From positions 24,218-88,217 of the IMG/VR virus record IMGVR_UViG_3300031576_000021: 64,000 nt of DNA; one strand, written 5' to 3'. The notes beneath the pieces were generated by a model, which was not told the DNA's origin, searched no databases, and worked only from the letters and a program-made list of their open reading frames with translations. This DNA is from a virus. Both the position numbers and the translations under genes were made by a program. Positions within the stretch are counted from its first letter, which is position 1; every line of letters begins with the position of its first letter. Shown one piece after another: positions 1,718 through 60,519 of this stretch.

Positions 1718-2574
1718 CCGACCTAAAGCAAGACGTGCGTGCCCTAGCCGATGCGTTGGCGATCGCGCGGCCGTTCGCGCTCCTCGATCTCGAAACGACT
1801 GGCACCGATCCGAAAGAGGATCGTATCGTCGAGGTGGCCGTCATCCGGTGCGTCCCCGTCGAGGCCGATGTGCCGGCCGTCGAAACCTACGTGCGGCGCG
1901 TGAACCCCGGTGTGCCGATCCCGGCCGAGGCGAGCGCCATCCACGGCATCACCGATGCCGACGTACGCGACGCGCCGACGTTCGTACAGATCGCGCCGGC
2001 TGTCCGCGGCATGCTCACCGGAGCCGATTTCGCGGGGTTCAATCTACTCAGATTCGACCTGCCACTCCTCGCGGCCGAGTTCGAGCGGGTCGGTATGCAG
2101 TTCGACCCACACCTCTCCGGCCGGCGCGTGATCGATGTGCAGCGGCTCTACCACCTAATGCATCCTCGCGATTTGTGCGCCGCGCGGCGCACCTATCTCG
2201 ACGAAGATGCGGCCGACGCGCATGGCGCGCTCGCCGATGCGTCGGCGACGGGCCGGGTGCTCCTCGCCCAGCTGATCTATCATCGCGAGGAATTCGCCGA
2301 GGGGGGTGCTTTCCTGCCGCGCGATCTCGATGCGCTCAATACGCTCAGCCGTGGCGCGCAGGCGAATTGGCTGGACCCCGAGGGCGCGCTCGTTTGGAGC
2401 ACGGCCGGCGAGGTGGTGTTCACGTTCGGCAAGCACAAGGGGAAGACGCTGCGCGAGGTGGCGCAGACGACGGACTATCTGTCGTGGATCGTGCGGGAGC
2501 GGGTGAAGAACCGCGTGGTGCAGCAGGTCGCGAGTTCGGCGCTCGGTGGGGTGTTCCCCTGTCGGCCGACGTAG
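1714..2574 (+). CDS. DnaQ-like 3'-5' exonuclease (DEDDh) with C-terminal FGKHKGK domain
   Basis: A 286-residue predicted 3'-5' exonuclease. Exo I is LLDLETTG (near residue 25, supplying D and E), Exo II is NLLRFDLPLL, and Exo III is AHGALADASAT with the His-Asp pair of the DEDDh class. The C-terminus has VVFTFGKHKGKTLREVA, resembling the small DUF3820-type domain found fused to phage exonucleases. ATG 1714 overlaps the upstream stop (ATGA) and gives a start just before the exonuclease domain. It could proofread for a polymerase encoded outside the window, or process recombination ends. Confidence 0.88.
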   Translation: MTDLKQDVRALADALAIARPFALLDLETTGTDPKEDRIVEVAVIRCVPVEADVPAVETYVRRVNPGVPIPAEASAIHGITDADVRDAPTFVQIAPAVRGMLTGADFAGFNLLRFDLPLLAAEFERVGMQFDPHLSGRRVIDVQRLYHLMHPRDLCAARRTYLDEDAADAHGALADASATGRVLLAQLIYHREEFAEGGAFLPRDLDALNTLSRGAQANWLDPEGALVWSTAGEVVFTFGKHKGKTLREVAQTTDYLSWIVRERVKNRVVQQVASSALGGVFPCRPT

Positions 2575-2576
2575 CC

Positions 2577-3296
2577 ATGCGCCTGTGCATCATCACCTGC
2601 ATGCGGGACGCGCTGCCGTTCCTGCCGCTCTACCGGGAGCAGCTACGGCGGTGGACGCTCCAGCCGGCGGTGATCGTGGTCGGAGAGAACGGCTCGGACG
2701 ATGGGACGCGCGCCTGGCTCGACCGCTGGGCGATCGACGACGACGCCCGCGTGGATGCGTTCTCGTTTGACCCGCCACCTGGACCGAAGCTGGAGCGCGT
2801 GGCCACGGCCGAGCGCGCGGCGCACATGGCGCGCGTCTGGAACACCTGCCTGGAACGCGCCCTGGAGCACGACTGGACGCATGCCGTCGTGATGTCCATC
2901 CAGAAGTATGCCCCGGCGTCGGTGATTGCGCGGCTGGCGGCCCTAGATCGAGACATCGTAGCGCCCCTGATCATGTTCCCCATGGGCGCGACGCGGATCT
3001 TCTACGATACGTGGTGCTTCCAGGCGCTCGACGGCACGCGTTTCTCCGCGCATGAACCGAGCGGCGATTCCGTGGAGGAAGTCGCGGGCGTCGGTGGCTG
3101 CTATCTGGTGCGCCGCGCCGTCTATGAAGCGGGCTGTCGGTTGGCGCCGACCGATGGCACGTTCTGCGAGTCGGTGGCGTTCTGCGAGCAGGCACGGGCG
3201 CGAGGATTCCAGGTCTGGGTGGATCGGCGGGAGCCGACCGCCTGGGCGTACTGGACGCCGGGGCCCTATCGCGCCAGGCTGGCTACGGATGGATGA
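2577..3296 (+). CDS. Glycosyltransferase-like protein (GT-A type)
   Basis: A 239-residue protein starting MRLCIITCMRDALPFLPLY and continuing VVGENGSDDGTRAWLDRW, the nucleotide-sugar-binding opening of GT-A (family 2-like) glycosyltransferases. Later segments (IVAPLIMFP, EEVAGVGGCYLVRRAV) fit this fold. In a phage it may glycosylate modified DNA bases or a surface component; the sequence does not say which. It begins 2 bases after the exonuclease stop and overlaps the next gene by 8 bases. Confidence 0.7.
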   Translation: MRLCIITCMRDALPFLPLYREQLRRWTLQPAVIVVGENGSDDGTRAWLDRWAIDDDARVDAFSFDPPPGPKLERVATAERAAHMARVWNTCLERALEHDWTHAVVMSIQKYAPASVIARLAALDRDIVAPLIMFPMGATRIFYDTWCFQALDGTRFSAHEPSGDSVEEVAGVGGCYLVRRAVYEAGCRLAPTDGTFCESVAFCEQARARGFQVWVDRREPTAWAYWTPGPYRARLATDG

Positions 3297-3507
3297 CAAG
3301 TACGAAGTCCCTGGCCTGGCCCGTGCGCTCCGCGAGACAAAAGGCGGCGCGCTGATCGTCGAAGTCACGGCCGACGACGGCGGCACCGAGGAGCTGTGCA
3401 TCCCGCAGAGCCAGGTCCACGAAAACTCCGAAGTCTGGAAGCCCGGCGACGAGGGCACGCTCGTCGTGACGGGGTGGCTAGCGAGGCAACGCGAATGGAT
3501 GGAATGA
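3289..3507 (+). CDS. Small conserved phage protein (GDEGTLVVTGWLA motif)
   Basis: A 72-residue acidic protein. Its C-terminal segment, PGDEGTLVVTGWLARQREW, resembles a short motif I associate with small phage DNA-metabolism proteins, often near helicases, but I cannot name the family. It starts at ATG 3289 inside the glycosyltransferase end. The frame stays open after its TGA (see the next entry). Confidence 0.65.
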   Translation: MDDKYEVPGLARALRETKGGALIVEVTADDGGTEELCIPQSQVHENSEVWKPGDEGTLVVTGWLARQREWME

Positions 3508-3516
3508 GGGGCTAAG

Positions 3517-3783
3517 ATACGGCAAGAACGGGTCGAAGCGATCATTGAGGCCGAGACCGTCGGATTGCGCGACCGCGTGATCGTCCGACTCGCCGAGGAG
3601 TTTCCGGACGTACGGTGGAGCTCGGCGGTTGGGCATCCGCCGATGGTGCGGGTCCAGCACAGCGGGCCGCCATTGCTCATGCCGGAGCGTGGCGACGAGC
3701 ACCCGCGGGTGGACAGATCAAAGCTGTCGATCACGTGGTCGTTGGAGCAGGTGACGGGCACGTGGAACGAAGACGATACATGA
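3517..3783 (+). CDS. Hypothetical protein without a canonical start
   Basis: The frame is open from the TGA at 3505-3507 to TGA 3781-3783 with coding-like composition (RQERVEAIIEAETVGLRDR, VIVRLAEEFPDVRW). No ATG or GTG precedes the coding-looking part. A GAGGGG ribosome-like site lies 5 bases before ATA 3517, and TTG 3565 is the first standard alternative start but has no ribosome site. Translation may start at a rare codon, or follow readthrough of the preceding TGA, since both genes share a frame. Function unknown. Confidence 0.45.
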   Translation: MRQERVEAIIEAETVGLRDRVIVRLAEEFPDVRWSSAVGHPPMVRVQHSGPPLLMPERGDEHPRVDRSKLSITWSLEQVTGTWNEDDT

Positions 3784-10094: not shown

Positions 10095-10448
10095 ATGGCG
10101 ATTGACCGGCTCGTCGCCGATCTCTCGCGGCTGCGCATCCGCTACCAGACGGAGCGCGAGCTACAGGAAGCGCTCGCTGAGGCGTTGCTCGAAGAAGGCT
10201 GGCCGGTCGAAGAGGAGCACGTCATCGCCGCCGGCCGCGTCGACCTCTGGTGCGACGGCATCGCCATCGAGATCAAATGCAAGGGGAGCCACGGCGAGGT
10301 GCTCCGCCAGGTGCATCGGTACGCCAGCGATCCGGCCGTGACCGGCGTGATCCTCGTGACCGACAAGCTCCAGCATGCGCGCGGCTACCCGGCGACGATG
10401 GCCGAGAAGCCGGTGCGGGTCGTGTGCCTCCTGGGCGGGATGCGATGA
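10095..10448 (+). CDS. PD-(D/E)XK-like nuclease domain protein
   Basis: A 117-residue protein. VIAAGRVDLWCDGIAIEIKC supplies the Asp and the E-x-K of a PD-(D/E)XK nuclease core, followed by a helix (EVLRQVHRYA) and strand (GVILVTDK). The length suits a stand-alone VRR-like or restriction-type nuclease domain. ATGA overlap with the helicase downstream suggests joint action on DNA ends or branches. Catalytic assignment is by motif only. Confidence 0.65.
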   Translation: MAIDRLVADLSRLRIRYQTERELQEALAEALLEEGWPVEEEHVIAAGRVDLWCDGIAIEIKCKGSHGEVLRQVHRYASDPAVTGVILVTDKLQHARGYPATMAEKPVRVVCLLGGMR

Positions 10449-13400
10449 GTGGGACAACTATAGGACAGATGGCGGATAACTGTCGGCCCGACGGTGCGCT
10501 TACCTACGTCGCCGGGAGCTGGGAAGTTACGGCACCGCCGCACATCCTGCAACGCCTGAAACGGGTGTTCGCCGGCATTCACGAGCGGAACATCCACATT
10601 GCCCGGCTCTCCGACACGCCGGCCGTCGCGTACGATCTGCAATGGTTCTTGCAGCGCCATCCGCTGACCATCTCGCGGGAGAACAGCGCCCGGTTGACGC
10701 AGCGGGCGGCGGCCTACGCGCAGCGGCAAGAGGACGTGCAGGCCATCCTCACGCACGGGCCACGCGAGACGTTCCCGCTAGCGTTGCCGCCACGGGACTA
10801 CCAGCGCGTCGCGGCCGAGCTGGTGCTGCGCACGGGTGGGTTACTCCTCAGTGACGACGTTGGCATTGGCAAAACGGCGGTGGGCATCTGTCTGCTTGTG
10901 CAGAAGGTTGCGCGGCCTGCTCTTGTGGTGACGCTCACGCACCTAACGCTCCAGTGGGCCGCTGAGATTCGGAAGTTCGCGCCACAGCTGCGCACGCACA
11001 TCGTGCGACGCGGGACGCCATATCGCATGGCCGATGCGCGTGGCGAGCCGGACGTCGTGATCATGAACTACCACAAACTCGCCGGATGGGCGGGAGCGCT
11101 GGCGCCCGTCATGCGCGCGATCGTGTTCGATGAAGTGCAAGAACTGCGGACGGGGGAGAACGCGAATGGCAACCCAGTCCAGAAGTACGTTGCGGCCAAA
11201 CAGATCGCGCTGCGGTGTGCGTATCGGCTCGGACTGAGTGTTGGTCCGCGCAGCGTCGTGGAATTGCGTGGTGGACCGTTCGGGGACGGGTGGGTGGGCT
11301 CCATCGAGGATGCCTGGGGTCTGGCTCGCGACGCGGCACCGCACTTCAAATGGCGTACTGGAGGCTACGAGCTACTGACGGAGGTCGCGGCAGAATCGCG
11401 TGGATGGGACGATGCGCGCGGCGTCTTTTGCTGGAAACCCGTACGGACATTCATTCGGCATTTATGCGATCGTGGTGTGCGCGAAGTGCAGTGTGGTGGG
11501 CAGCGCTTAACGTTGACGGACGACCACGCAATCTATCGCGCAACGCAAGCCGGCTTCGAGTCTGTGAGGGCGGACGCACTCGCCCCTGGGGATATTGTGC
11601 CGGTCGACACGGGGGGCGGGTGGACGTCGGGCATGCATGAGCAGCCATTTGACGTGACGGCGCTGCACGTCGACCGCGCGCAGATCAATGTCAACCTGTC
11701 GCGTGTCTCGCGACGCGTCGTGGGCATGCGTCCTTGGGAATGGCGGAATTGCCACACGGAGGCGACGTACGGCCCGCGGCTGCCGCTGCGGGTCTACCGG
11801 CAGCATCGTGAGCGATTCCCGGTAGTCGGGCCGGTCTATGTCGGTCGTGGTCGTGCAGCGGCGTTGCCTGCTGCCCTCCGACTGAGCGACATGGCATATG
11901 TCTTGGGATTTTATCTCGGGGACGGCTGGGTGAGCGGGCCGCGCGTATGCTTTGCGGTCGAGCAGGCTCGCGTCGCGGACTTCACGGAGCGGCTGGAGGC
12001 GTTGCCATTCGGATTGCGTCCCAAGGTGCGCACGATGCGTGGCGCGTCGGTGGAAATTCGCTGCACGCACGTACTCCTTGCTGAAGTGCTTCGGCAGGTC
12101 GTGCCCGGCCGCTGCTATGACAAGGCCATTCCGGCGGAATGGATCATGACGTGGCCGGAAGCGGCGCGACGCGAGTTGGCGCGTGGGTTGGTTGATTCGG
12201 ATGGCCATGTGTCGCGACCCGGACGGCGGTGGGGCGCAGCCTACTCCACGACGTCATCCATCCTAGCCATGGGGTTCATGACGCTGCTGCGCAGCCTCGG
12301 CGTTCGGCCCGGCCTGCATGTGCGCATTCCCATGGATGGAGGAGTGATCGATGGTCGACAGATTCGCGGGCGCCGCGTGAGCTACCAGGTGTATTGGAGT
12401 TGGGCCGCGTTTGTCGGTGCGCATGGCCGATACGTCGGGCATCGTTACCGGCACGGCTCGCGGCTGACGTTTAACGAAGCGCGCGTCTCGGGATCGCACA
12501 GTGTGCCGCCACCGCGGTACGTCTATGACCTGGAAATGGATGGGCACCCGTCGTTCGTTGCGAACGGGTTGCTTGTGCACAATTCGGCCACCCCATTCTA
12601 CAACTACGGCGGCGAGCTGTGGAACGTCTTGAACGTCCTACAGCCGGGCTGCCTCGGCTCACGCCTGGAGTTCGACATCGCCTACACGACGCGCGTCGGC
12701 AACGGCAAGACGGCGATCCGCGAGCCGCGCGCCTTCGGCACGTTCCTCCGCAGCGAGGGGATCATGCTCCGGCGCACGCGCGAAGACGTCGGCCGCGAGC
12801 TGCCGCCCGTGATTCGCATCCCGCACGTCATCGAGGCCGATGCGTCGGTCCTCGACAAGATCAAGACCAGTGCGGCCGAGCTGGCGCGAATCATTCTGGG
12901 AGCGAGCGAGCAATTCCGTGGGCAGAAGATGCAAGCAGCGGAGGAACTGTCGAGCCAGCTACGACAGCATACGGGGCTGGCAAAGGCCCCCTTTGTGGCT
13001 GCCTTCGTCCGCATGCTGGTCGAGCAGGGCGAGCAAGTCGTGCTCTTTGGATGGCACCATGCCTGCTACAGTCTCTGGCGAGAATTACTCACGCCGTGCG
13101 GCGTGGTCTTCTACACGGGAGCGCAGTCCGTCCCGCAGAGGGAAGAGGCCCGCAAGACGTTTCTCGACGGCACGGCCAAAGTGCTGGTCATGTCGCTGCG
13201 GGCTGGCGCTGGTCTCGACGGATTGCAAGGTGCCTGCCGCACGGTCGTCTTCGGCGAGCTGGACTGGAGCCCGGGGGCCATGGAGCAGTGCCTCTCGGGA
13301 GATACCGAGATCCTGACGCCAGACGGATTCCGTGGACCGGACGACATCTCCGTCGGCGATCTGGTCTGTGGCTTCGAGCCAAGCACCGGCTCGATGCGAT

Positions 13401-14728
13401 GGGTGCCGGCGCAGGCTAAGACCGACCGGCAGCGCGGACCAACGGAGCGCATGTACGCAACCGCCACCGAAAAGATCGACGTCCGCGTAACCGAAGACCA
13501 CCAGATGTTGGTACGACGACAGCAGCGCACAACGCACGGGGTGCGCCGGTCCACATGGGCATTCTCGACCGCCCGTGACGTTGCCAACAGGCACCGTCGA
13601 TATATCCCGACCTGTGGACAGCAAAACGCGGCCGGCGTGCCGTTAACAGCACATGAACTCCGGCTGATTGGGTGGTTCCTGTCTGACGGCAACCTGAATC
13701 TCCATTCACGCACGCTCACAATTTATCAGGCCGCCCACCAGCCGTGGAACGCTAACATCATCGACACGCTGGACGGATGTGGCCTTAAGTGGTCGCGATT
13801 CCAACGAACCAGCCCGAAAGGGACGTTGATGAACTGGTACATGGTGCCGCGCGGGACGTTGAGGCCCTGGTCACGACGAGACACGATCACGATGCGCGAC
13901 ATGCTGGCCGATGGGGCAACCTATACCACGATCGCTGCGGCGCTCGGGCGTTCGGCTGCGGCGATTGGAAAGAAGGCAAGGCGCGTGGATTCCTGGCATC
14001 GTGGCGCAGAGCGCGTGGGCCGTGGCTGGGATCATCTGGGCGAATATCTCGACAAAGATTTGAGCCCCAGACTTGAGTTGGCGACCTCTGAGCAGTTGGA
14101 GCACCTCATCGAAGGGATACATCTCGGAGATGGGAGCAAGAACGACAAGCACGTGCGGCGGATCTACAGCATCAACAAGCGATTCCTTGACCGCCTCCAG
14201 TCGCTCTGCGTGCGACGCGGGCTCTCGGCGCATATCTCTCCTCCGCGCGGTGGCGGCAAACCAATCTATACGATCTTCATTTCACGCAGCGCAGATGCCG
14301 TGCTCCCGCGCGGCGTAAAGCCAAATGCATTCGGGATCGTATCCAGCAGTCCCAGTGAGCGAGTCTGGTGCGTGACGAACGCTCTTGGCACGCTGGTTAC
14401 ACGGCGCCACGGAAAGGTCGCGATCGTCGGCAACTGTGTGGGGCGTGTGCATCGTGATGGGCAGGCCGAACCCGTACGGGCGTTCTTCCTCTACGCCGAA
14501 ACCGGGTCCGATCCGATCATGATCGACGTGCTCGGCGTCAAGCGGCAGCAGATCGAGAACGTGCGGGACCCCGACGCCGATTTCATCGAGAAGCTAGAGG
14601 TGTCGGGCGACCACGTCCGGCGGCTGGCCGAGGCGTATCTGGCGGGACTTGACACAAGGGCCGCAATAGGCCATAACGGACCCAAAGCGGCGCCACGGAG
14701 CGCCATGGTGGCTGCACGGAAGGTATGA
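10445..14728 (+). CDS. SNF2-type helicase split by two inteins
   Basis: A 1427-codon gene whose exteins form a ~596-residue SNF2/superfamily 2 helicase. Walker A is SDDVGIGKT (~137-145), motif II is VFDEVQE (~226). Motif III (GLSATPFYN) is interrupted after Leu by intein 1, and motif VI ([12 protein letters not shown]) is interrupted before Cys by intein 2. ATG 10445 overlaps the nuclease stop. The C-terminal tail ([14 protein letters not shown]) is basic. Both inteins must be removed before ATP hydrolysis is possible. The promoter at 14649 lies in the last codons. Confidence 0.9.
11237..12583 (+). other. Intein 1 of helicase with LAGLIDADG endonuclease
   Basis: A 449-residue intein. It begins at Ser ([13 protein letters not shown]) and ends [19 protein letters not shown], followed by Ser of the extein SATPF. 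Two LAGLIDADG-type motifs are visible: [14 protein letters not shown] and [12 protein letters not shown]. The block B region is LTDDHAIY. An N-terminal Ser in place of the usual Cys is a known variant. Confidence 0.88.
13289..14434 (+). other. Intein 2 of helicase with LAGLIDADG endonuclease and HTH
   Basis: A 382-residue intein starting [14 protein letters not shown] and ending GKVAIVGN before Cys. LAGLIDADG-type motifs are [13 protein letters not shown] and [13 protein letters not shown]. Between them lies a helix-turn-helix-like stretch ([20 protein letters not shown]). Block B is VTEDHQMLV. The penultimate residue is Gly instead of the typical His. Confidence 0.88.
14649..14678 (+). promoter_or_regulatory. 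Promoter of the TTGACACAA family
   Basis: TTGACA 14649-14654 and a weak -10 (ATAACG 14673-14678) at 18 bp, in the layout TTGACACAAG...AGGCCATAACG. It lies inside the helicase 3' end, upstream of ATG 14725. Confidence 0.55.
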
Positions 14729-50242: not shown

Positions 50243-50547
50243 TTTTCCAGGCACTGACCGAGCGGCCCCGGCCAGGGCCCCACTGGCGGTACGCGCTCGG
50301 CGAGGCAATCATCGAGGACGTACGGCGGTTGATTACCCGCCAACGCGGGACGGGGGCGCATCAGGACGCGCTCGCCTGGGTGCAGGCTACCGGCTCAGAT
50401 AGCTGGTTCTCGTTCGAGGGGGTCTGTGCGATGCTCAGGGTCGAACCCGACTACATCCGGCGGGGACTGCTCACGCTGGAAGCGAAATACGAGACGCAGG
50501 GCAAGCTGGAGCGGCCGGTCACATGGCGGGTCCGGGGCGCAGCGTAA
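50239..50547 (+). CDS. Conserved small protein before the terminase
   Basis: A 102-residue protein from GTG 50239 (GTGA). WRYALGEAIIEDVRRLI, DALAWVQATGSDSWFSFEGV and CAMLRVEPDYIRRGL form a pattern common just upstream of phage terminase genes, possibly a small-terminase or HTH role. It overlaps the terminase by 25 bases. Confidence 0.6.
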   Translation: MIFQALTERPRPGPHWRYALGEAIIEDVRRLITRQRGTGAHQDALAWVQATGSDSWFSFEGVCAMLRVEPDYIRRGLLTLEAKYETQGKLERPVTWRVRGAA

Positions 50548-53507
50548 CCGCCGAGCAGCTCGTCGAGCTGGCGCAGGAAGTCCCGCTCCGCTTCCGCGAC
50601 GAGTTCTTCGAGACCATGCGTGCCGTCGCGACGGGCGACGTGGTCGAGGTGAAACGCCGGCTGCGGTGGCGCGAAGACCCGGTGCCGATGGAGCAATTCA
50701 TCGTCGACCCGTACTTCCTCGGCATGAAGGGCCAAGCGTACGACGAGATTGTCGCCCTATGCAGCGAGATCGACGTGAGCGAGTGCGAGGAGGTCATCCT
50801 CACGGGCGGATTGGGGTGGGGCAAAAGTTTCGCCTCGGTCATCCTGATGGCGCGGCAGGCGTATCTCTTCAACTGCCTCCGTGATCCCTGGGGCGAGTAC
50901 GAGATGACGCCCGGCTTTCCGATCGTCATCATTCAGCAGAGCGTGACGCGGGCGAAGGCGAAAGACGTCTTGTTTACTGGGCTCGCCGCGCGGCTTCGCA
51001 ACTCGCCATACTTCCAAGAGTGCTGCCTGCCCGATCCGAAGATCGAGAGCGAGCTGAAGTTCCCGAACGGGCTCGTCATCAAGCCAGTGGCATCGGGAGA
51101 CGCCGCCGCGATCGGCGAGAATTGCATCGCGGGCACGGTGGACGAAGTCAACTTCATGCGGCTGGTCGAGCGGTCGGCGCGGTCGCGTGACGGGCAGTCC
51201 TACGATCAGGCCACCGAGAGTTATCGCACGCTCGCCACCCGGCGCCGCAGCCGGTTCGTTAGCTACGGCAAACTGCCCGGCTGGATCGTGCTGGTCTCGT
51301 CCAGCCGGTATCCGAGCGACTTTACCGAGCAGAAGATGACCGAGGCCAAGGACGATCCGCGCATCTTCGTGCGGCGCTATTCCAACTGGGCAACGAAGCG
51401 GCACAAGTTCCAGGCCGAGGAGTTCACGTTCGCGCTGCCGACGGCCACCCAGCGTGGACGCATTCTCGACCCTGGCGAGACGACTGAGCAGCCGACCATT
51501 CAGGTCCCCGAGGATTTTCGCGAGGACTTCCAGAAGTACCCGGAGCAGTCAACGCGCGAGATCGCCGGGTTCCCGACGGAAGCCATCACCCCGTTCATCG
51601 CCCGGCGGGAGCTGCTCGCCGACATGGTGCGTCCCGAGTACCACCACCCGTTCGATGTCGAGTCGGGCACGATGCAAGACGGGATCAAGCTCCTCGTCGC
51701 GCACCTCCACAAGACGGCGCAGCCCCGCGCGTTGCACTTGGACCTGTCGAAGAATCGGGACGCAACCGGGCTGGTGTTCGGCTATGTGCGCAAGGTCGGC
51801 GTGTTTCATCGGACCAGTCTGGAAAGCGCTGCGGCCGAGAAAGCCGGCCGGCAGATCGTGACGGAAGAGACGCCGGATGGCCGGCGGTACGTCGAGCACG
51901 CACCGATCATCGTGATCGAGGGCATGCTGCGGATCACGGCGCCGCCGGGGGACGAGGTGCTGATCGAGGAGGTGTTGCAGCTCGTGTTCGAGATCAAGCG
52001 CCACGTCCCGCTGAAGTGGGTGACAAGCGATCAGTTCCAGAGTCTGCAAGCCCGGCAGATGTGCCGCGCTCGGGGGCTCATCACGGGTGAGGTCTCCGTC
52101 GATACCAGCGTCGAGCCGTACATGAACACGCGCATGGCGATCTACGACCGGCGGTTGGAGACGTACCACTACCCGGTGCTGCTGCGTGAGTTGGCGGCAC
52201 TCGAACGCGTCGACTCGGGCGGCAAGATCATGATCGATCATCCGCGTTGGGCGCTCGATGCTGACGGCAACCGGGTCGCTGGTTGCTTCGCAGGAGACAC
52301 ACGCGTGCGGCTGCTGGACGGTTGCGGCCCCACGTTCCACGATCTGGTCAAGGAATACGGCGACGGGCGTCCGTTCCACGTCTACACCATTCGTGACGGG
52401 AGCGTGTCGGTAGGGGTGGCGCATCACCCGCGGTGGACGAAGTATGCGCCCGTTGTGGAGGTGGAGCTGGACAACGGTCAGTGTATCCGATGCACGCCGG
52501 ATCACCCCTTCATGCTGCGGAATGGCACCTGGAGTGCGGCCGGGGATCTTGAGCCGGGCACGTCGTTGATGCCGCTCTACACCCGCGTGAGCGAGGGCCG
52601 CAGCCGTATGAATGGGTACGAGCTGTACTGCGACCCACGCGATGAGCGTTGGCACTTTACTCACCGCATGGTCGGTCGGTGGAAGTACCCAGATCATGGA
52701 TACACCGGCAACCAGAACGGGGCTGGCGTGATCCATCACAGCAAAGGCAAGCTGAACAACGATCCAGATGCCCTGATCTGGTTTGCGACGCAGGCAGAGC
52801 ACCGCGCTCTGCATGGACGGGAAATGCTTCGCTATCGAGCGAATCCCGAGTTCGAGGCACGGCGGCTCGTCGGTCTCCGGGCTTACAACGACGACCCGGT
52901 CAATCGGCAGGCGCAGGGGGATCGCCTGCGCTTGACTATGGGCCGCCCGGAGGTGCGGGCGAAGCGGGATGCAGCATCGGCGATCACCGGGCGCCGCACT
53001 GGGCCGGAGAACATGCGTCGGTACAACCAGAGTGCGAAGCACCGTCTCATTGCTGCGGAGATCGGGAAGCGAACCATCTGGCACGCCATCGAGGCGCGTC
53101 GGCGCCGGGATGTTACGGCAGATGAGGTGCCGGAGTGCCGGTTGCGGGGAATGACGAACCCGCAAATTGCGGCGGCGCTGCGGTGTTCCATCTCCCTGGT
53201 TGAACGGCGTATCGGACGCCTGCGTGCGGCTGGAGTGGTTATCCCGGCCAGCCCGTACCTGGTACGCAATCACAAGGTTGTGGCTGTGCGTCTCGCTGGA
53301 CTGGCCGATGTGTTCGATCTGACGGTGGATGGCACGGAGAATTTCGCGCTGGCGTCTGGCGTGTTCGTCCACAATTCCAAGGACGTTGCGGACGGCCTGG
53401 CGGGCGTGATCCATACGTTGAGCATGCGCCGCGACAGCTGGCGCCCCAGCGACGCGCCCGGCCGGCGCGACGACATCCACCGCAAGGCCGACATCGCCCG
53501 CCGCTAA
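50523..53507 (+). CDS. terL: Terminase large subunit, split by an HNH intein
   Basis: A 994-codon gene. Exteins form a ~630-residue packaging motor. Walker A is GGLGWGKSF (~96-104), with DEVNFM as the likely Walker B end. The C-terminal nuclease contains LHLDLSKNRDATGLVFGY, with a catalytic Asp, and KDVADGLAG, the final acidic motif. The intein (52284-53375) sits immediately before SKDVADG, so nuclease activity needs splicing. It is located before the portal, as usual. Confidence 0.9.
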   Translation: MAGPGRSVTAEQLVELAQEVPLRFRDEFFETMRAVATGDVVEVKRRLRWREDPVPMEQFIVDPYFLGMKGQAYDEIVALCSEIDVSECEEVILTGGLGWGKSFASVILMARQAYLFNCLRDPWGEYEMTPGFPIVIIQQSVTRAKAKDVLFTGLAARLRNSPYFQECCLPDPKIESELKFPNGLVIKPVASGDAAAIGENCIAGTVDEVNFMRLVERSARSRDGQSYDQATESYRTLATRRRSRFVSYGKLPGWIVLVSSSRYPSDFTEQKMTEAKDDPRIFVRRYSNWATKRHKFQAEEFTFALPTATQRGRILDPGETTEQPTIQVPEDFREDFQKYPEQSTREIAGFPTEAITPFIARRELLADMVRPEYHHPFDVESGTMQDGIKLLVAHLHKTAQPRALHLDLSKNRDATGLVFGYVRKVGVFHRTSLESAAAEKAGRQIVTEETPDGRRYVEHAPIIVIEGMLRITAPPGDEVLIEEVLQLVFEIKRHVPLKWVTSDQFQSLQARQMCRARGLITGEVSVDTSVEPYMNTRMAIYDRRLETYHYPVLLRELAALERVDSGGKIMIDHPRWALDADGNRVAGCFAGDTRVRLLDGCGPTFHDLVKEYGDGRPFHVYTIRDGSVSVGVAHHPRWTKYAPVVEVELDNGQCIRCTPDHPFMLRNGTWSAAGDLEPGTSLMPLYTRVSEGRSRMNGYELYCDPRDERWHFTHRMVGRWKYPDHGYTGNQNGAGVIHHSKGKLNNDPDALIWFATQAEHRALHGREMLRYRANPEFEARRLVGLRAYNDDPVNRQAQGDRLRLTMGRPEVRAKRDAASAITGRRTGPENMRRYNQSAKHRLIAAEIGKRTIWHAIEARRRRDVTADEVPECRLRGMTNPQIAAALRCSISLVERRIGRLRAAGVVIPASPYLVRNHKVVAVRLAGLADVFDLTVDGTENFALASGVFVHNSKDVADGLAGVIHTLSMRRDSWRPSDAPGRRDDIHRKADIARR
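52284..53375 (+). other. Terminase intein with HNH endonuclease and HTH
   Basis: A 364-residue intein. It starts CFAGDTRVRLLDG and ends VFDLTVDGTENFALASG..VHN before Ser. Block B is CTPDHPFML. The endonuclease is HNH-like (VIHHSKGKLNNDPDALIWFA, then QAEHRALHG) rather than LAGLIDADG, followed by a helix-turn-helix (MTNPQIAAALRCSISLVERR). Confidence 0.88.
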
Positions 53508-55460: not shown

Positions 55461-57251
55461 GTGGCTCGAGTGGGGCGGTCGAAGGACAGGAACGATGCCC
55501 GGGTCCGGGTCGTGCGGGTACCCGTGGCCGGCTACGCGACGAACAACGCGTTGCTCGGGTCCGGTGACGAGTCTCCGGGCTTCGTACCCGTTCCCGTGAG
55601 CGGGCGCCCGAAACGGTTGCAGCACGTCGAGAAGCGCGAGAGCAAGAAGATCCGCCAGTCGCGTGTCTCCCCCGGTCTGTTCGACAGCAAAATCATTCCG
55701 CCGCCGGTCGACCCAGGGCGCCTCCTAGAGATCGGTCTCGACAACTCGGTCCTACGCCAGTGCGTCGATGCCACCGTAGTCAACATCGATCTGTTCGGCT
55801 GGACGTTGGAGTACGCCGGCCCCGAGGGCCAGGAGGACACGCCAGACTCCAAGCAGGAGAAGGCCCGCTCGGAGACGTTCTTCCTCACCTGCAACCCGAA
55901 GCAGTCGTTCACATCGATCCGCGAGGCCGTGCGGTTCGATCGCGGATTCATGGGGACCGGATACTTCGAGTTCATCCGGGACGACTCCGGCGAGAATCTC
56001 GTCGGCATCGAGCACTTGCCGTCCCGGACGATGCGGATCTGCGAGGAAGATCCCGAGCCCGTGGACATCCAATGGACGATGGTTGGCGCGAACGGCGAGC
56101 TGGTAACCCGCCCGATCGCCATGCGCTTCCGACGCTACGTACAGATCGCCGGCAGCACGCGCGTCTGGTTCAAGGAGCTGGGCGATCCGCGCATCATCAG
56201 TGCGCGTGACGGCCGGGTGTACGAGGCCCTGCCGCCGGAAGAAGAAGCGACCGAAGTGCTCCACATGCGGACCTACTCGGCGACGGAGCCCTACGGCCTG
56301 GTGCGCTGGTTCGGCAATCTGCCCGCGGTGCTCGGCAGTCACCATGCCGACATGACGAACCTGAATTTCTGGAAGCGGTCGGGTATCCCGCAGCTGGCGA
56401 TCGTCGTCTCCGGTGGCGGTGTGACCACGAAGACGCTCGATCGCATCGAGTCGTTCTTCAAGCACGGGCCGGACCCCTCGAAGGCGTTCCACGACGTGTT
56501 GATTATCGAGGCGACGCCTGATCTCGACGATCAGAAGATGGACGAGAAGCCGGCCACCGTGCACGTGCAGCTGAAGCCGCTGCATAACGAGCGCATGACC
56601 GATGCCGTCTTTCCGAAGTACGACGAGGCGAATCGGACCAAGGTACGCTCGTCGGAACGCCTCCCGCCGGTTTTGATCGGGCTCGCCGATGATCACACGT
56701 TCAACAGCACGCTCGGCGCCCGCACCACAGCTGAGGAGCAGGTGTTTCAGCCGGAACGCAGTGGGTTCGACGAAACGATCAACCTGCGCGTGATGCCGTT
56801 GCTGAAGGTGTTCCGGTGGAAGTTCGTCACGAACGGCCCGATGGTGGGCGACGTCGAGGCGTTCACGCAGGCCATGATTCGCTTCAACGAGGTCGGCGCG
56901 ATGACGCCCAACGTGGCGCGGACGATCAGCAACGAGATGCTCGGCACGACGTTTAAGACGATTGAGGAGCCGTGGGGAGACGTGCCGTTTGCGCTGACGG
57001 TTGCGCAGCAGCAGCCGCGTCCGGAGGAGCCAGGCGAGCCGCTCGACAAGGGAAAGCCGGATGAGGTCGCGGTCGAGAAAGGCGATGACGTCGTATCGCT
57101 CGTCGGCCGTGCATTCGGCGGCGACGACGCCGCAGTGGCGGATCTCGGCAAGCAGTTGCAGAAGGCCCTGCGGACGAAGGCCGCTGTTGTGGTCAGTATC
57201 GATCGCGGCAAGACGGTGTTGAAGGGCGGCAAGCGCGCCGTACGGCGATGA
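55461..57251 (+). CDS. Portal protein (PBSX/XkdE type)
   Basis: A 596-residue portal. LLEIGLDNSVLRQCVDATVV, LVGIEHLPSRTMRIC, PYGLVRWFGNLPAVLGSH and SERLPPVLIGL are typical of phage portal proteins of the PBSX family. The C-terminal ~100 residues are charged. GTG 55461 is the start. It forms the dodecameric ring for DNA entry and lies next to the minor head protein. Confidence 0.85.
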   Translation: MARVGRSKDRNDARVRVVRVPVAGYATNNALLGSGDESPGFVPVPVSGRPKRLQHVEKRESKKIRQSRVSPGLFDSKIIPPPVDPGRLLEIGLDNSVLRQCVDATVVNIDLFGWTLEYAGPEGQEDTPDSKQEKARSETFFLTCNPKQSFTSIREAVRFDRGFMGTGYFEFIRDDSGENLVGIEHLPSRTMRICEEDPEPVDIQWTMVGANGELVTRPIAMRFRRYVQIAGSTRVWFKELGDPRIISARDGRVYEALPPEEEATEVLHMRTYSATEPYGLVRWFGNLPAVLGSHHADMTNLNFWKRSGIPQLAIVVSGGGVTTKTLDRIESFFKHGPDPSKAFHDVLIIEATPDLDDQKMDEKPATVHVQLKPLHNERMTDAVFPKYDEANRTKVRSSERLPPVLIGLADDHTFNSTLGARTTAEEQVFQPERSGFDETINLRVMPLLKVFRWKFVTNGPMVGDVEAFTQAMIRFNEVGAMTPNVARTISNEMLGTTFKTIEEPWGDVPFALTVAQQQPRPEEPGEPLDKGKPDEVAVEKGDDVVSLVGRAFGGDDAAVADLGKQLQKALRTKAAVVVSIDRGKTVLKGGKRAVRR

Positions 57252-57595
57252 CGCTGCGCGAGCTGGAGGCGGAGTTCTATCGATACGTCGACGAGCAAGA
57301 CGGCCGCATTCTCTGGAGGCTAGTCGAGACACTCGCGCAGGCGCATGGGGTCATGTTCCTGTGCCCGAAGTGTTACCAGGAGAACGGCGGCGCAGTGGGC
57401 ACGCATCGCGTGATATGTTGGTCGCGCTCGCGTGGCGTCCCGGATGAGGCGCAGCCGAAGCCCGGTCGGTGGCCGCTACTCGGCACCGGGCTCGACGATC
57501 TAACGCTGGACGGTGATCCCCCAGGTACTGCGTCGGTGCTACTCACGAACGGGTGCGGCGCGCATTTCTTCGTCAAGAACGGCGAGGTATGCTGA
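57248..57595 (+). CDS. Small zinc-type head-region protein
   Basis: A 115-residue protein. MFLCPKCYQENGGAVGTHRV, ICWSRSRGVPDEAQPKPGRW and GCGAHFFVKNGEV form a pattern with C-x2-C and His-Cys ligands (DUF6527-like in style). ATGA coupling to the portal stop; its end overlaps the minor head start. Confidence 0.6.
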   Translation: MTLRELEAEFYRYVDEQDGRILWRLVETLAQAHGVMFLCPKCYQENGGAVGTHRVICWSRSRGVPDEAQPKPGRWPLLGTGLDDLTLDGDPPGTASVLLTNGCGAHFFVKNGEVC

Positions 57596-60519
57596 CGCTC
57601 GACGACCTGATCACCGGCTTGATGGCCGATGTGATGAAAGCGCCGCACGGCAACTTCTGTCATCCAGGTCGCCGTGGACTCCGCGGAGGAGCCGGGCCCC
57701 ACACGCCGCACAGTCGGCTCCGCTTCCGCGTCGCGCAGCACCGGGTCGGCATCGGCGGCAGCTTCGCCCCGACCTACCCGGCTACGGTACGGGCGCCCGA
57801 CATCCCCCTCGTGCCGGTCGAGAAAGATCACGCCGAAACCGCCGCAGCCCGGGTCGCACGGCGTTGGGCACGTATCCTCCCGCGCTTGGAGACTCGGATC
57901 GGCGATGGGTTGCGCTCCCTCGAAGCGGCCGTGCTCGCCGCCTGGCGCTCGGTCTACCTGGAGGAGCGGCCGAAGCTCCAGCGGGCGTTGCGTGGCGAGG
58001 CAGCGGGCGCCGACGCGCTCCGCGAGCTGGCCGACGAGCTACTCGCCGCCTACGTCGAGAACCTCGCCGAGCGCCGGATCGTGCCCGTGCTCCGCGAAGC
58101 GGCGAGCCGCACATCGCTCGCCGAGGCGGCGCCGCTCGTGCTGGCCCGGGTGCCGGCCATGTTCGATGCGGCCTTCCAGCCCCTCTGGCAGCGCATCGTC
58201 TCCTTCAGTAGCCTCCGCGAAGCAGAGAAGGCGGCCGAGCCCAGGCCGCGGGTGTCGCCTGGCGCGGAGCTGATTCCTGAGGGTGTAAGTCGCCGGCAAC
58301 GCTACAGGATTCAGACGGCGGGGGATGATCGGGTGTGTTTCCTAGCTGGGACGCCCATCACCATTGAGGGCCGGGCCATCGCATGGGCTGCGAGTAGGAC
58401 GGACGCGGTGAGCCTGCTGTTCCTTGCGGATCGTGTACTGGCCGGGACGCCCGACCACCCGATCTGGAAATGCGGGCACGGCTGGATGCGATTGTCCGAA
58501 TTGCAGCCCGGTGATTGCGTGCAGAGTATCGAACAGCAACCGATCGAGGTGATCGGGCGGGTAGACTTGGTCCTCGTCGATATGCAACACGGACCATCCG
58601 ACCTCGCGCAGTCGCTTGTCCCGTCGGAGATCCTTCGCCGGGTCATGCCAATAGCGGCCGTCTACTTCGAGGGCCAGCTTGAGATCGCAGAAGGCAAAGT
58701 CCAGGGCGAAGCGACCGACCCGATACTCCTGCTCGTAGCGCATGGACAAACGATCGAGCGCCTCGCGGACTTGCCGCTCCGGCCAGGTTTCCAGGTTGGA
58801 GAATCGGTAGCAGGCGACGCTGCAAAATTGGCGGCGCGCGTTCTTGGGTTGCTTGCGGAAGTGTCGCCCACAGCTCCGGCAGGGAACGATCTCGGGTGGC
58901 CGGCGGCATGTCTCGGAGCAGTGGCGATACGGTCCGTTCGTGGCGACCCGGAACATGGACCCGCAGCGCTCGCAGGCACGGCGGACGATGCTGCGTCGCT
59001 TGCAGTCGCTGCATTGTTTGTACCTGGAGAGACTCGACTGACTTATTCGGAATGTCCGCAGACACTTTGGGCACGTGAACGGTCGAGTCTGCCGCATCCC
59101 CTTGAGCGTGCCAGCACAGCCGCGGCTGCACGTCGGGACGGCGGCATGCTTGCGGCGGGCGTTGGGGAACCAGCAGATCTTGCCGCACACTGGGCAGGGG
59201 ACGCCGCGTTGCTCCCGCTTCACCTGCTTGAGCTGGAGCGCGCATGGCCAGCTACACGTCGGAACGGTAGTCGGACGCTGCGGGCGGCCAGGCTGCAACC
59301 AGAACATGTTGCTGCATATCGGGCATGGGACATCGCGTCCCCGTGCATCGCTGCGACGCCTGGGTGGCGTCCAGCCCTGGTCGAGTGGTTTAGCGATGGC
59401 CCTGGCTTTGTCGTCCATAGTGTCGAGGTCGCCCCACATCCTGAGTACCACGCGCTGGGCATTCGCGTACATAATTGCCCGGTCTGCGAGTACATTTCCG
59501 AGTTACGGGGTAGCTTCAAACTCGCCGACGCACTCGCCGCGTTCGATTCGTTCTTGGATGCCGTAGAGGAGGATGTCCTCTCTGACGTGGTGGAGTCGGT
59601 CCCCTTCCCACGCATCGACGATATCGATGGCCTCACGGCTCGCGAGCTGTCCTCTCTCGGCGTTCTCTTGCCCCCGTTCCATCCAAACTGCTTACCTGGC
59701 GACGCGCTCGTAGCGGCCGGCAGCGTTACGGCGACGAGTGAACGGCGGTACAAAGGTGAGTTGCTCGTCGTCCGCACGGCCGGCGGCGAGATGCTCCCCT
59801 GTACCCCAAACCACCCGGTACTCACGCAGCGTGGTTGGGTGGGCGCATGTTTCCTGGTGGAAGGCGACGATCTGCTCCGCTGCGGCATCCCCGAGCGGGT
59901 AGTGGGTGCTGATGACGACGATGAACACGTGCCATCCCGCATCGAAGAGATGGCGCATGCGCCGTTCGTGCCGGGCCGCATGGTGTCCCGTGAAGTGCCA
60001 GTCTCCGCCCCAGACTTCCACGGCGACGGGGGAGGCTCCGAGGTCGCAGTTGTACTGACCGATCGCTTGCTGCGGAATGGTCACCAGGCCATGTGCCGAG
60101 AGCATCGCATGCAGTCTTCTCTCGTGATGGCTCATCCGACCCAATCGCTGGATGGTCTGGGCTTTCCGTCTGAGTTCCTCTTGGCTGGCAACCCGGCCAC
60201 GCACGGCCTCATGGGCCGCCTGCGTAAGGGCCGCACGCTGTTCGGGCGTCGCGTTCGCCATTCGGAGGAACATGCCGTCGGAGCGCCCACGTGGCGCAAT
60301 CCCAGCCTCGATCAAATGCCGGCGGATGACGCCCCTGGAGACGCCATGCTGCTGCGCGAGCGCCTTCTCAGACAGCCTGGGATAGTTGCGGATCAGCTGC
60401 GTGGTATCGAGGTCCAGTCGTTTCATGGGAAGGTCTACAACTGCGAGACCAAGGCCGGCTGGTATGTAGCAAACGGCCTGGTGACGCACAACTGCCGCTG
60501 CGGCATCGTGTTCATCTAG
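57589..60519 (+). CDS. Minor head protein split by two inteins
   Basis: A 976-codon gene. The exteins form a ~328-residue SPP1 gp7/Mu F-like head morphogenesis protein; GDDRV-CPVCEY and PPFHPN-CRCGIVF carry its Cys motif. One intein is inserted before the first Cys (58336-59475), the other before CRCG (59689-60492). The ATG 57589 overlaps the previous stop. Opposite-strand endonuclease genes lie inside both inteins. Confidence 0.85.
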   Translation: MLTLDDLITGLMADVMKAPHGNFCHPGRRGLRGGAGPHTPHSRLRFRVAQHRVGIGGSFAPTYPATVRAPDIPLVPVEKDHAETAAARVARRWARILPRLETRIGDGLRSLEAAVLAAWRSVYLEERPKLQRALRGEAAGADALRELADELLAAYVENLAERRIVPVLREAASRTSLAEAAPLVLARVPAMFDAAFQPLWQRIVSFSSLREAEKAAEPRPRVSPGAELIPEGVSRRQRYRIQTAGDDRVCFLAGTPITIEGRAIAWAASRTDAVSLLFLADRVLAGTPDHPIWKCGHGWMRLSELQPGDCVQSIEQQPIEVIGRVDLVLVDMQHGPSDLAQSLVPSEILRRVMPIAAVYFEGQLEIAEGKVQGEATDPILLLVAHGQTIERLADLPLRPGFQVGESVAGDAAKLAARVLGLLAEVSPTAPAGNDLGWPAACLGAVAIRSVRGDPEHGPAALAGTADDAASLAVAALFVPGETRLTYSECPQTLWARERSSLPHPLERASTAAAARRDGGMLAAGVGEPADLAAHWAGDAALLPLHLLELERAWPATRRNGSRTLRAARLQPEHVAAYRAWDIASPCIAATPGWRPALVEWFSDGPGFVVHSVEVAPHPEYHALGIRVHNCPVCEYISELRGSFKLADALAAFDSFLDAVEEDVLSDVVESVPFPRIDDIDGLTARELSSLGVLLPPFHPNCLPGDALVAAGSVTATSERRYKGELLVVRTAGGEMLPCTPNHPVLTQRGWVGACFLVEGDDLLRCGIPERVVGADDDDEHVPSRIEEMAHAPFVPGRMVSREVPVSAPDFHGDGGGSEVAVVLTDRLLRNGHQAMCREHRMQSSLVMAHPTQSLDGLGFPSEFLLAGNPATHGLMGRLRKGRTLFGRRVRHSEEHAVGAPTWRNPSLDQMPADDAPGDAMLLRERLLRQPGIVADQLRGIEVQSFHGKVYNCETKAGWYVANGLVTHNCRCGIVFI
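58336..59475 (+). other. Minor head intein A, endonuclease encoded antisense
   Basis: A 380-residue intein. It starts CFLAGTPITIEG, has block B-like VLAGTPDHPIW, and ends VHSVEVAPHPEYHALGIRVHN before Cys. Between the splicing blocks no sense-strand endonuclease motif is visible. The same DNA encodes a zinc-finger Vsr-like nuclease on the minus strand. Sense splicing parts amount to about 80 N-terminal and 40 C-terminal residues. Confidence 0.85.
58342..59418 (-). CDS. Antisense zinc-finger Vsr/DUF559-like homing endonuclease
   Basis: A ~358-residue protein from ATG at 59418 (59472 is the furthest start). Five C-x2-C finger units follow each other (CPICSNMFW, CPVCGKICWF, CPKCLRTFR, CERCGSMFR, CRSCGRHFR), then a PD-(D/E)XK core: GRFALDFAFCDLKLALEVDG, RYWHDPAKDLRRDKRLREVG and WSVLHIDEDQV, as in Vsr and DUF559 endonucleases. 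Codons pair in register with the sense intein. Its TAG lies opposite intein codon 3. Confidence 0.8.
   Translation of the reverse strand: MDDKARAIAKPLDQGWTPPRRRSDARGRDVPCPICSNMFWLQPGRPQRPTTVPTCSWPCALQLKQVKREQRGVPCPVCGKICWFPNARRKHAAVPTCSRGCAGTLKGMRQTRPFTCPKCLRTFRISQSSLSRYKQCSDCKRRSIVRRACERCGSMFRVATNGPYRHCSETCRRPPEIVPCRSCGRHFRKQPKNARRQFCSVACYRFSNLETWPERQVREALDRLSMRYEQEYRVGRFALDFAFCDLKLALEVDGRYWHDPAKDLRRDKRLREVGWSVLHIDEDQVYPPDHLDRLLFDTLHAITGLQFGQSHPAVPAFPDRVVGRPGQYTIRKEQQAHRVRPTRSPCDGPALNGDGRPS
59689..60492 (+). other. Minor head intein B, endonuclease encoded antisense
   Basis: A 268-residue intein. It starts CLPGDALVAAGSVTATSERR, has block B CTPNHPVLTQRGW, and ends VYNCETKAGWYVANG..THN before Cys. 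The middle has APDFHGDGGGSEVAVV, a string I also associate with other phage Hint/intein proteins; opposite it lies the nuclease active site of the minus-strand gene. Confidence 0.85.
59692..60426 (-). CDS. Antisense HTH-Vsr-like homing endonuclease
   Basis: A 244-residue protein from ATG at 60426. LSEKALAQQHGVSRGVIRRH is a helix-turn-helix. MSHHERRLHAMLSAHGL, NCDLGASPVAVEVWGGDWHF and ERRMRHLFDAGWHVFIVV match the helix, Asp/Glu active site and R-x3-L-x3-GW segment of Vsr/DUF559-like nucleases. The TAA stop lies opposite intein codon 2. No clear ribosome site. Confidence 0.75.
   Translation of the reverse strand: MKRLDLDTTQLIRNYPRLSEKALAQQHGVSRGVIRRHLIEAGIAPRGRSDGMFLRMANATPEQRAALTQAAHEAVRGRVASQEELRRKAQTIQRLGRMSHHERRLHAMLSAHGLVTIPQQAIGQYNCDLGASPVAVEVWGGDWHFTGHHAARHERRMRHLFDAGWHVFIVVISTHYPLGDAAAEQIVAFHQETCAHPTTLREYRVVWGTGEHLAAGRADDEQLTFVPPFTRRRNAAGRYERVAR

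Follow-up and report, generated by a model that had tools for sequence, protein, structure and literature searches.

Background

Canonical large inteins carry an in-frame LAGLIDADG or HNH endonuclease between the blocks of a Hint splicing domain. The EDxHD (Vsr-like) homing endonuclease family, to which I-Bth0305I belongs (PDB 3r3p; PMC3943268), was described as group I intron-encoded, while Vsr-like endonuclease genes also appear to occur between the halves of split inteins in 'fractured genes' (Dassa et al. 2009). Homing endonuclease genes on the strand opposite to their mobile element are known from nuclear rDNA group I introns (I-DsqI, PMC9548176), and a homing gene hidden in another frame of an insertion was reported for the out-of-frame HNH insertion in phage methylases (ShiLan domain, PMC11855218). 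In the ambigrammatic narnaviruses, a codon-aligned reverse frame is kept open by synonymous removal of reverse-strand stops (PMC6884476).

The stretch of phage DNA analyzed here (hereafter, the window) consisted of 64,000 nucleotides, representing positions 24,218 to 88,217 of the IMG/VR virus record IMGVR_UViG_3300031576_000021. In its minor head gene, and in about a hundred relatives, inteins were found to carry an endonuclease gene on the opposite DNA strand, codon-aligned with the intein. A literature search, which did not extend to every relevant work, revealed no prior description of antisense endonucleases in inteins.

Architecture of the locus

The initial annotation had proposed two inteins in the minor head protein, each with a homing endonuclease gene in exact codon register on the minus strand, and this could be confirmed. 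The sense ORF and both minus ORFs exist and are codon-aligned. The stop codons of the minus ORFs and their internal ATG starts were located as annotated, each start lying opposite a His near splicing block F. The features are listed in Table 1. The spliced extein of the window alone gave no Pfam hit, and the MuF assignment of the host gene therefore rests on its position after the portal gene and on homologues, in which the inteins sit in MuF/head morphogenesis genes. A search of the phage's own genome for PF05551, which was the wrong family, found nothing.

Table 1. Features of the minor head gene, its two inteins, and the antisense genes, in window coordinates
Feature	Position	Strand	Remarks
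Portal gene	55461-57251		PF04860
Phage minor head (MuF / SPP1 gp7-like) gene interrupted by two inteins	57553-60519	+	988 aa; exact start codon uncertain
Intein A	58336-59475	+	380 aa; C262 to N641; His-Asn followed by extein Cys
Minus ORF in intein A	58342-59472	-	
Antisense homing endonuclease A (putative)	58342-59418	-	358 aa from ATG at 59418
Probable non-conserved run-on of endonuclease A	about 58342-58520	-	
Five C4 zinc fingers of endonuclease A	58810-59325	-	20 cysteines invariant in three distant homologues
EDxHD/Vsr-type nuclease core of endonuclease A	58519-58791	-	LEVDGxYWHxPxKD
Stop codon of endonuclease A ORF	58342-58344	-	opposite intein codon 3 (Leu CTA)
Intein B	59689-60492	+	268 aa; C713 to N980; His-Asn followed by extein Cys
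Minus ORF in intein B	59692-60489	-	
Antisense homing endonuclease B (putative)	59692-60426	-	244 aa from ATG at 60426
Helix-turn-helix DNA-binding region of endonuclease B	60307-60405	-	predicted helices 8-14, 20-27, 31-40
EDxHD-type nuclease core of endonuclease B	59911-60129	-	conserved D128, E137, H144
ATG start of endonuclease B	60424-60426	-	opposite the His of sense FHGKVYN (block F)
Stop codon of endonuclease B	59692-59694	-	opposite intein codon 2 (Leu TTA), the position found in most homologues

Both inteins showed N-terminal and C-terminal splicing blocks, namely Cys1 and TPDHP with VHN before the extein Cys in intein A, and Cys1 and TPNHP with THN before the extein Cys in intein B. 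Intein B matched PF14890 (1.2e-5), as did 44/44 homologues, while the matches to TIGR01445/TIGR01443 were weak. Intein A was not recognized by single-sequence Pfam or NCBIfam models; however, a 14-member sense profile matched solved inteins, the best at 1.5e-14. No endonuclease match was found in the sense frame of either intein. In contrast, the first helicase intein of the same window has a sense-strand LAGLIDADG domain, and the terminase intein looks as if it has a sense-strand HNH.

Profile searches of the minus-strand protein of intein A revealed matches to DUF559 (4e-8), PDB 3r3p I-Bth0305I (9e-8), and TIGR00632 vsr (1.3e-5). The minus protein of intein B matched, on its own, REase_MTES_1575 (1e-4) and, as a 60-member profile, 3hrl (4.5e-6) and 3r3p (5e-5). 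The 20 paired cysteines of the five fingers of A were invariant in two relatives at 34-36% identity, and LEVDGxYWH was invariant in three members. Among 60 B-type members, D128 and E137 were invariant and H144 was conserved in at least 90%, and HTH families could be identified in homologues. The conserved sense motif APDFHGDG is the mirror of the nuclease active site AVEVWGGDWH. AlphaFold gave a confident nuclease (pLDDT 93.6), for which the best PDB match was I-Bth0305I. The model of sense B showed a predicted Hint fold with Foldseek hits to GyrA/RecA/RadA inteins, in which the Hint halves were mostly at 86-98 and the insert, predicted to be disordered, was at about 29-37.

Conservation of both frames among homologues

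A single-sequence scan of viral contigs with the A nuclease found nothing, whereas a motif scan followed by a three-member profile succeeded; a ten-member B alignment was too diverse to scan with. Both frames were open in 90 of 94 distinct B-type homologues and in 18 distinct A-type homologues. In the 18 intein-embedded A-type genes, 0 opposite-frame stops were present in 4199 codons, compared to 193 in 4618 codons of other, mostly free-standing relatives. In the B-type elements, 464 forbidden codons were expected from extein usage and 0 were seen. Homologous inteins with a broken minus frame and an open sense insert, which would count against the initial annotation, were limited to two cases (locus L102, and locus L110 with its duplicate L111), and these look like ordinary decay of a homing gene. 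In most A-type relatives, the nuclease stops about 57-79 codons after intein Cys1, so the last ~59 residues of the window's A protein are probably run-on in GC-rich DNA, which refines the initial annotation.

The substitution patterns were decisive. In 13 disjoint B pairs, substitutions at sense codon positions 1/2/3 numbered 794/553/1811 in the N-extein, 705/193/422 in the insert core (position 1 exceeding position 3 in 13/13), 144/27/156 in the overlap with blocks A/B, and 60/27/117 in the C-terminal blocks. Thus, changes within the insert sit at the third codon position of the nuclease, those in the exteins at the sense third position, and the tail overlapping splicing blocks A/B shows both constraints. 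In A-type elements, substitutions at nuclease positions 1/2/3 numbered 827/675/1154, with the same outcome in 9/9 disjoint pairs, and nuclease identity exceeded sense identity in 171/171 pairs. Intein B of the window also showed the higher nuclease identity against 89/89 homologues. These are position counts and not phylogenetic codon models, and the counts across homologues are not corrected for phylogeny beyond the use of disjoint pairs.

In many B-type relatives, the antisense gene is self-contained, with an extended -10 opposite block G, a Shine-Dalgarno and ATG opposite block F, and a stop opposite intein codon 2. Codon usage at these signals was biased, the His codon being CAT in 67/70 compared to 43% in exteins, and the Leu codon CTC in 44/58 compared to 18%. 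The -10 was at a fixed position in 48/72 loci and was better than synonymous resampling overall; however, the result was uneven, with 29 of 72 loci reaching P<0.05 individually. The B copy of the window lacks a clear Shine-Dalgarno or -10, as does A, and a consensus sigma-70 scan of the window insert found no promoter.

The intein-nuclease unit was observed at different insertion sites in the same gene and in other host genes (dCMP deaminase, prohead protease). A third, LAGLIDADG-like case was found in Gordonia phages, where the inteins were identical over 275 codons while the exteins differed at 75-87 sites. This case rests on three records with identical inteins, one weak PDB match, and one PHROG profile match.

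Interpretation

With high confidence, each insertion is best explained as a mobile intein whose homing endonuclease is a separate gene on the opposite strand. Sense translation would produce the head protein with a Hint splicing domain, the halves of which are joined by a long, probably disordered linker, and the intein would excise itself. Minus-strand transcription would produce an EDxHD (Vsr-like) nuclease with zinc-finger (A) or HTH (B) DNA-binding domains, which would cut the intein-less head gene at the insertion site, and repair would copy the intein in. The codon-aligned register lets the nuclease keep its protein while the other strand stays open by synonymous avoidance of TTA, CTA, and TCA. 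The architecture, the nuclease homology, and purifying selection on both strands in the expected segments are evident from sequence, while antisense expression, splicing, cleavage, and homing are inferred. The view of the initial annotation that this is a distinct class is supported as an architecture, since it recurs with three nuclease types (zinc-finger EDxHD, HTH EDxHD, and LAGLIDADG-like). It is likely, although less certain, that these elements represent a widespread class of ambigrammatic inteins, arisen at least twice and probably three times, in which the endonuclease is a complete antisense gene and, in the commonest type, its promoter element, Shine-Dalgarno, start, and stop codons are written on the back of the splicing motifs, so that splicing and homing functions constrain opposite strands of the same bases.

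It is unlikely that the antisense frames are relics of formerly active homing genes, kept open mainly because the sense frame must stay open. The few copies with nuclease stops and an open sense frame, and the lack of obvious antisense promoters in the window copies, could fit such a view. However, changes concentrate at nuclease third positions even between close pairs, active-site residues are invariant or nearly so across the 60 B-type members, and the zinc-finger cysteines are invariant. It is also improbable that the nuclease genes are free-standing homing genes that landed inside an already existing intein, or inside the head gene, without being functionally part of the intein. Free-standing relatives of both families exist, including many zinc-finger relatives, and this is a likely origin; moreover, A-type nucleases are usually nested between the splicing blocks. 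Nevertheless, the B-type nuclease shares its start, ribosome-binding, and stop signals with splicing motifs, and the unit recurs in different genes and sites, so the two travel together. Although long antisense frames without homology do occur in this window, such as the 643-aa frame opposite the terminase gene and its intein, which had no family match and was rejected as a gene, a chance by-product of GC-rich, codon-aligned coding with accidental nuclease resemblance is refuted by the substitution patterns and the conservation in genomes of about 37-45% GC, where other frames hold 20-55 stops; the significant nuclease matches also speak against it.

The locus shows how a mini-intein could regain mobility by capturing a nuclease gene backwards, as only the codon-aligned register lets all reverse-strand stops be removed by synonymous change (PMC6884476). 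It also implies that inteins now classed as lacking endonucleases, or as having unexplained long linkers, may hide one on the other strand, and surveys that read only the sense strand would miss them. It further offers new EDxHD nucleases with modular zinc-finger or HTH DNA recognition, and natural examples for studying the evolution of overlapping genes.

Comparison with known systems

The inteins described here share with canonical large inteins the Hint splicing domain with blocks A, B, F, and G, Cys1 and the C-terminal His-Asn, insertion in conserved phage genes, and presumed homing; however, the endonuclease is not part of the intein polypeptide but a separate gene on the opposite strand, and the sense linker is predicted to be disordered. 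The nuclease core resembles that of I-Bth0305I by sequence, profile, and fold, together with tethered DNA-binding modules, but is encoded antisense to an intein. The split inteins with intervening Vsr-like genes would share the nuclease superfamily and a nuclease gene separate from the splicing polypeptide at an intein locus, whereas the inteins here are contiguous within a single uninterrupted sense ORF and the nuclease is codon-aligned antisense to them. The I-DsqI system likewise has a functional homing endonuclease encoded on the strand opposite to its mobile element, but the rDNA group I intron has no protein-coding frame to preserve, so no dual coding arises. The ShiLan insertion also stays open in the host frame, although its HNH nuclease is not antisense, lying apparently in the third frame of the same strand, and no splicing domain was found. 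The ambigrammatic narnaviruses share the codon-aligned open reverse frame, but they are RNA viruses and no function was described for the reverse frame in that paper (PMC6884476).

Coding content of the minor-head gene and its opposite strand

The minor-head gene of the window consisted of a single 988-aa frame containing two inteins, A and B, and a codon-aligned minus-strand frame was located opposite each of them. The minus-strand protein opposite intein A matched DUF559 (4e-8), the Vsr model (1.3e-5), and the solved homing endonuclease I-Bth0305I (PDB 3r3p, 9e-8). It contained five C4 zinc fingers, whose 20 cysteines were invariant in two relatives at 34-36% identity. The B protein alone matched REase_MTES_1575 only weakly; however, a 60-member profile matched 3hrl (4.5e-6) and 3r3p (5e-5), and 40 of the 60 members matched MTES_1575. 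No endonuclease match could be obtained for the sense inserts. The PHROG profile phrog_15127, labelled "head protein", matched the window protein at residues 712-848, over intein B, so that profile contains intein and mirror-nuclease sequence and can mislabel genes.

Two further genes of the window also carried, or appeared to carry, inteins, with endonuclease-like sequence on the sense strand. The gene upstream of the portal gene, apparently the terminase large subunit, carried an intein (PF14890, 5e-13) whose insert looks like an in-frame sense-strand HNH endonuclease with HTH, while a 643-aa antisense frame opposite had no family match. The SNF2-like helicase gene appeared to carry two inteins, the first with a sense-strand LAGLIDADG domain (PF14528, 5e-12) and the second with LAGLIDADG-like motifs recognized by eye.

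Coordinates of the intein-related features in the window and in two homologous loci
Feature	Sequence	Coordinates	Strand
Minor-head gene	Window	57553-60519	+
Intein A	Window	58336-59475	+
Intein B	Window	59689-60492	+
Apparent terminase large subunit gene with intein	Window	50523-53507	+
SNF2-like helicase gene, apparently with two inteins	Window	10250-14728	+
B-type nuclease annotated as its own gene	L013 (Acinetobacter phage P1068)	2405-3298	+
Gene annotated "putative head morphogenesis protein"	L020 (Virus Rctr197k)	2165-3517	+

Homologous loci and open frames

The tblastn search using the B protein revealed 120 phage records (Jerseyvirus, Kagunavirus, Gordonia, Pseudomonas, Vibrio, and others), with up to 36% identity over 99% of the query for the best enterobacterial hits, on the strand opposite to genes called head morphogenesis. 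Scans of IMG/VR and GTDB provided about 100 further loci, and individual loci are designated here by L numbers. Among 94 distinct B-type nucleases, 90 had the nuclease open and not one stop in the opposite aligned frame, although the other frames carried many. Based on extein codon usage, 464 forbidden Leu/Ser codons were expected. In two of the exceptions, L013 and L024, the nuclease was open and the opposite frame was broken (free-standing or remnant). In L013 the nuclease abutted the end of a short head gene and the opposite frame had 8 stops; it may be free-standing or the remnant of an intein that lost its sense frame. In the other two, L102 and L110, the nuclease frame contained a stop while the sense frame was open; this was also observed in L111, a duplicate of L110, and these are likely decaying homing genes. 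L073, set aside as a near-duplicate, was broken in both frames. One head gene, in the sense ORF of L023, appeared to hold two B-type inteins, with two TPNHP and DFHGDG stretches.

For type A, 18 distinct embedded loci had 0 opposite stops in 4199 codons, compared to 212 and 147 in the other two antisense frames, while 33 other relatives had 193 in 4618 codons (218 and 197 in the other two). L144 and L179, from one contig of 37% GC, had 0 opposite stops against 41 and 55 in other frames. L149/L171, representing one contig, carried both A and B types in one head gene, similar to the window.

Substitution patterns

The selected strand was assessed by counting differences at each codon position, although these counts are not phylogenetic models. 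In 13 disjoint B-type pairs, the differences at sense codon positions 1/2/3 were 794/553/1811 in the N-exteins and 336/260/626 in the C-exteins, but 705/193/422 in the insert core, where sense position 1, corresponding to nuclease position 3, led in 13 of 13 pairs. Where the nuclease tail overlaps blocks A/B, the counts were 144/27/156, as expected if both frames are constrained, and in the C-terminal blocks they were 60/27/117. For type A, the counts at nuclease positions 1/2/3 were 827/675/1154, with position 3 leading in 9 of 9 disjoint pairs, and nuclease identity was above sense identity in 171 of 171 pairs. Moreover, for the window's own B protein, nuclease identity exceeded sense identity against all 89 homologues.

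Expression signals of the B-type antisense gene

The start codon was located opposite the His of the block F motif HVYNLE, which was encoded by CAT in 67 of 70 His compared to 43% in exteins. The Leu of that motif was CTC in 44 of 58 compared to 18%, giving GAG of a Shine-Dalgarno 5' of ATG. The stop was opposite intein codon 2 in most loci. An extended -10 (TGnTATAAT-like) was observed opposite block G at one fixed position in 48 of 72 loci. Against synonymous resampling, 29 of 72 loci had P<0.05 and the combined Fisher statistic was 392 on 144 df; however, the loci are not independent. The window copies lacked clear versions of the -10 and Shine-Dalgarno.

Structure prediction

AF2 prediction using the homologue alignment modelled the B nuclease at a pLDDT of 93.6 and a pTM of 0.78, and the best PDB match of the model was I-Bth0305I, with a probability of 1.00 and a target TM of 0.62-0.63. 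The sense B intein was modelled with confident Hint halves and an insert of pLDDT about 29-37, and the model matched solved inteins. The type A sense profile also matched solved inteins, the best at 1.5e-14.

Mobility and proposed mechanism

The same intein-nuclease type was present at two different sites of the Kagunavirus head gene (L003 and L004), in a dCMP deaminase (L020), and in a prohead protease (L036/L002). L020 is annotated as a head morphogenesis protein, but its exteins are a dCMP deaminase (PF00383, 2e-15), and the label probably comes from intein homology. A third nuclease type was observed in Gordonia phages Lennon, Nordenberg, and Thing3 (L022, L156, and L157), in which an intein at the MuF site carries a LAGLIDADG-like antisense frame (phrog_5046, 3.6e-15; I-MsoI, 6e-4). 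This intein was identical over 275 codons while the exteins differed at 75-87 sites. Keitabear shares nearly the same exteins as Lennon but has a B-type intein at that site. This fits recent transfer by homing or recombination. The best reading, inferred here without demonstration of transcription, translation, splicing, or cutting, is that sense translation and self-splicing give the head protein, while antisense expression gives the nuclease that would cut the empty site.

Comparison with known systems

No account of antisense endonucleases in inteins was found in the literature examined, which did not extend to a 2025 preprint on actinobacteriophage inteins with "non-canonical architecture" that may cover the Gordonia cases. 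Head-gene inteins of Jerseyvirus have been annotated previously (PMC8425127), as well as in the Snoke and fEg-Eco06 records, and some records list the antisense frame as a hypothetical protein. Related arrangements are also known, and we therefore do not regard this one as categorically new. Antisense homing genes are known in rDNA group I introns (PMC9548176), an out-of-frame HNH is known in a phage methylase insertion (PMC11855218), and codon-aligned reverse frames are known in narnaviruses (PMC6884476).
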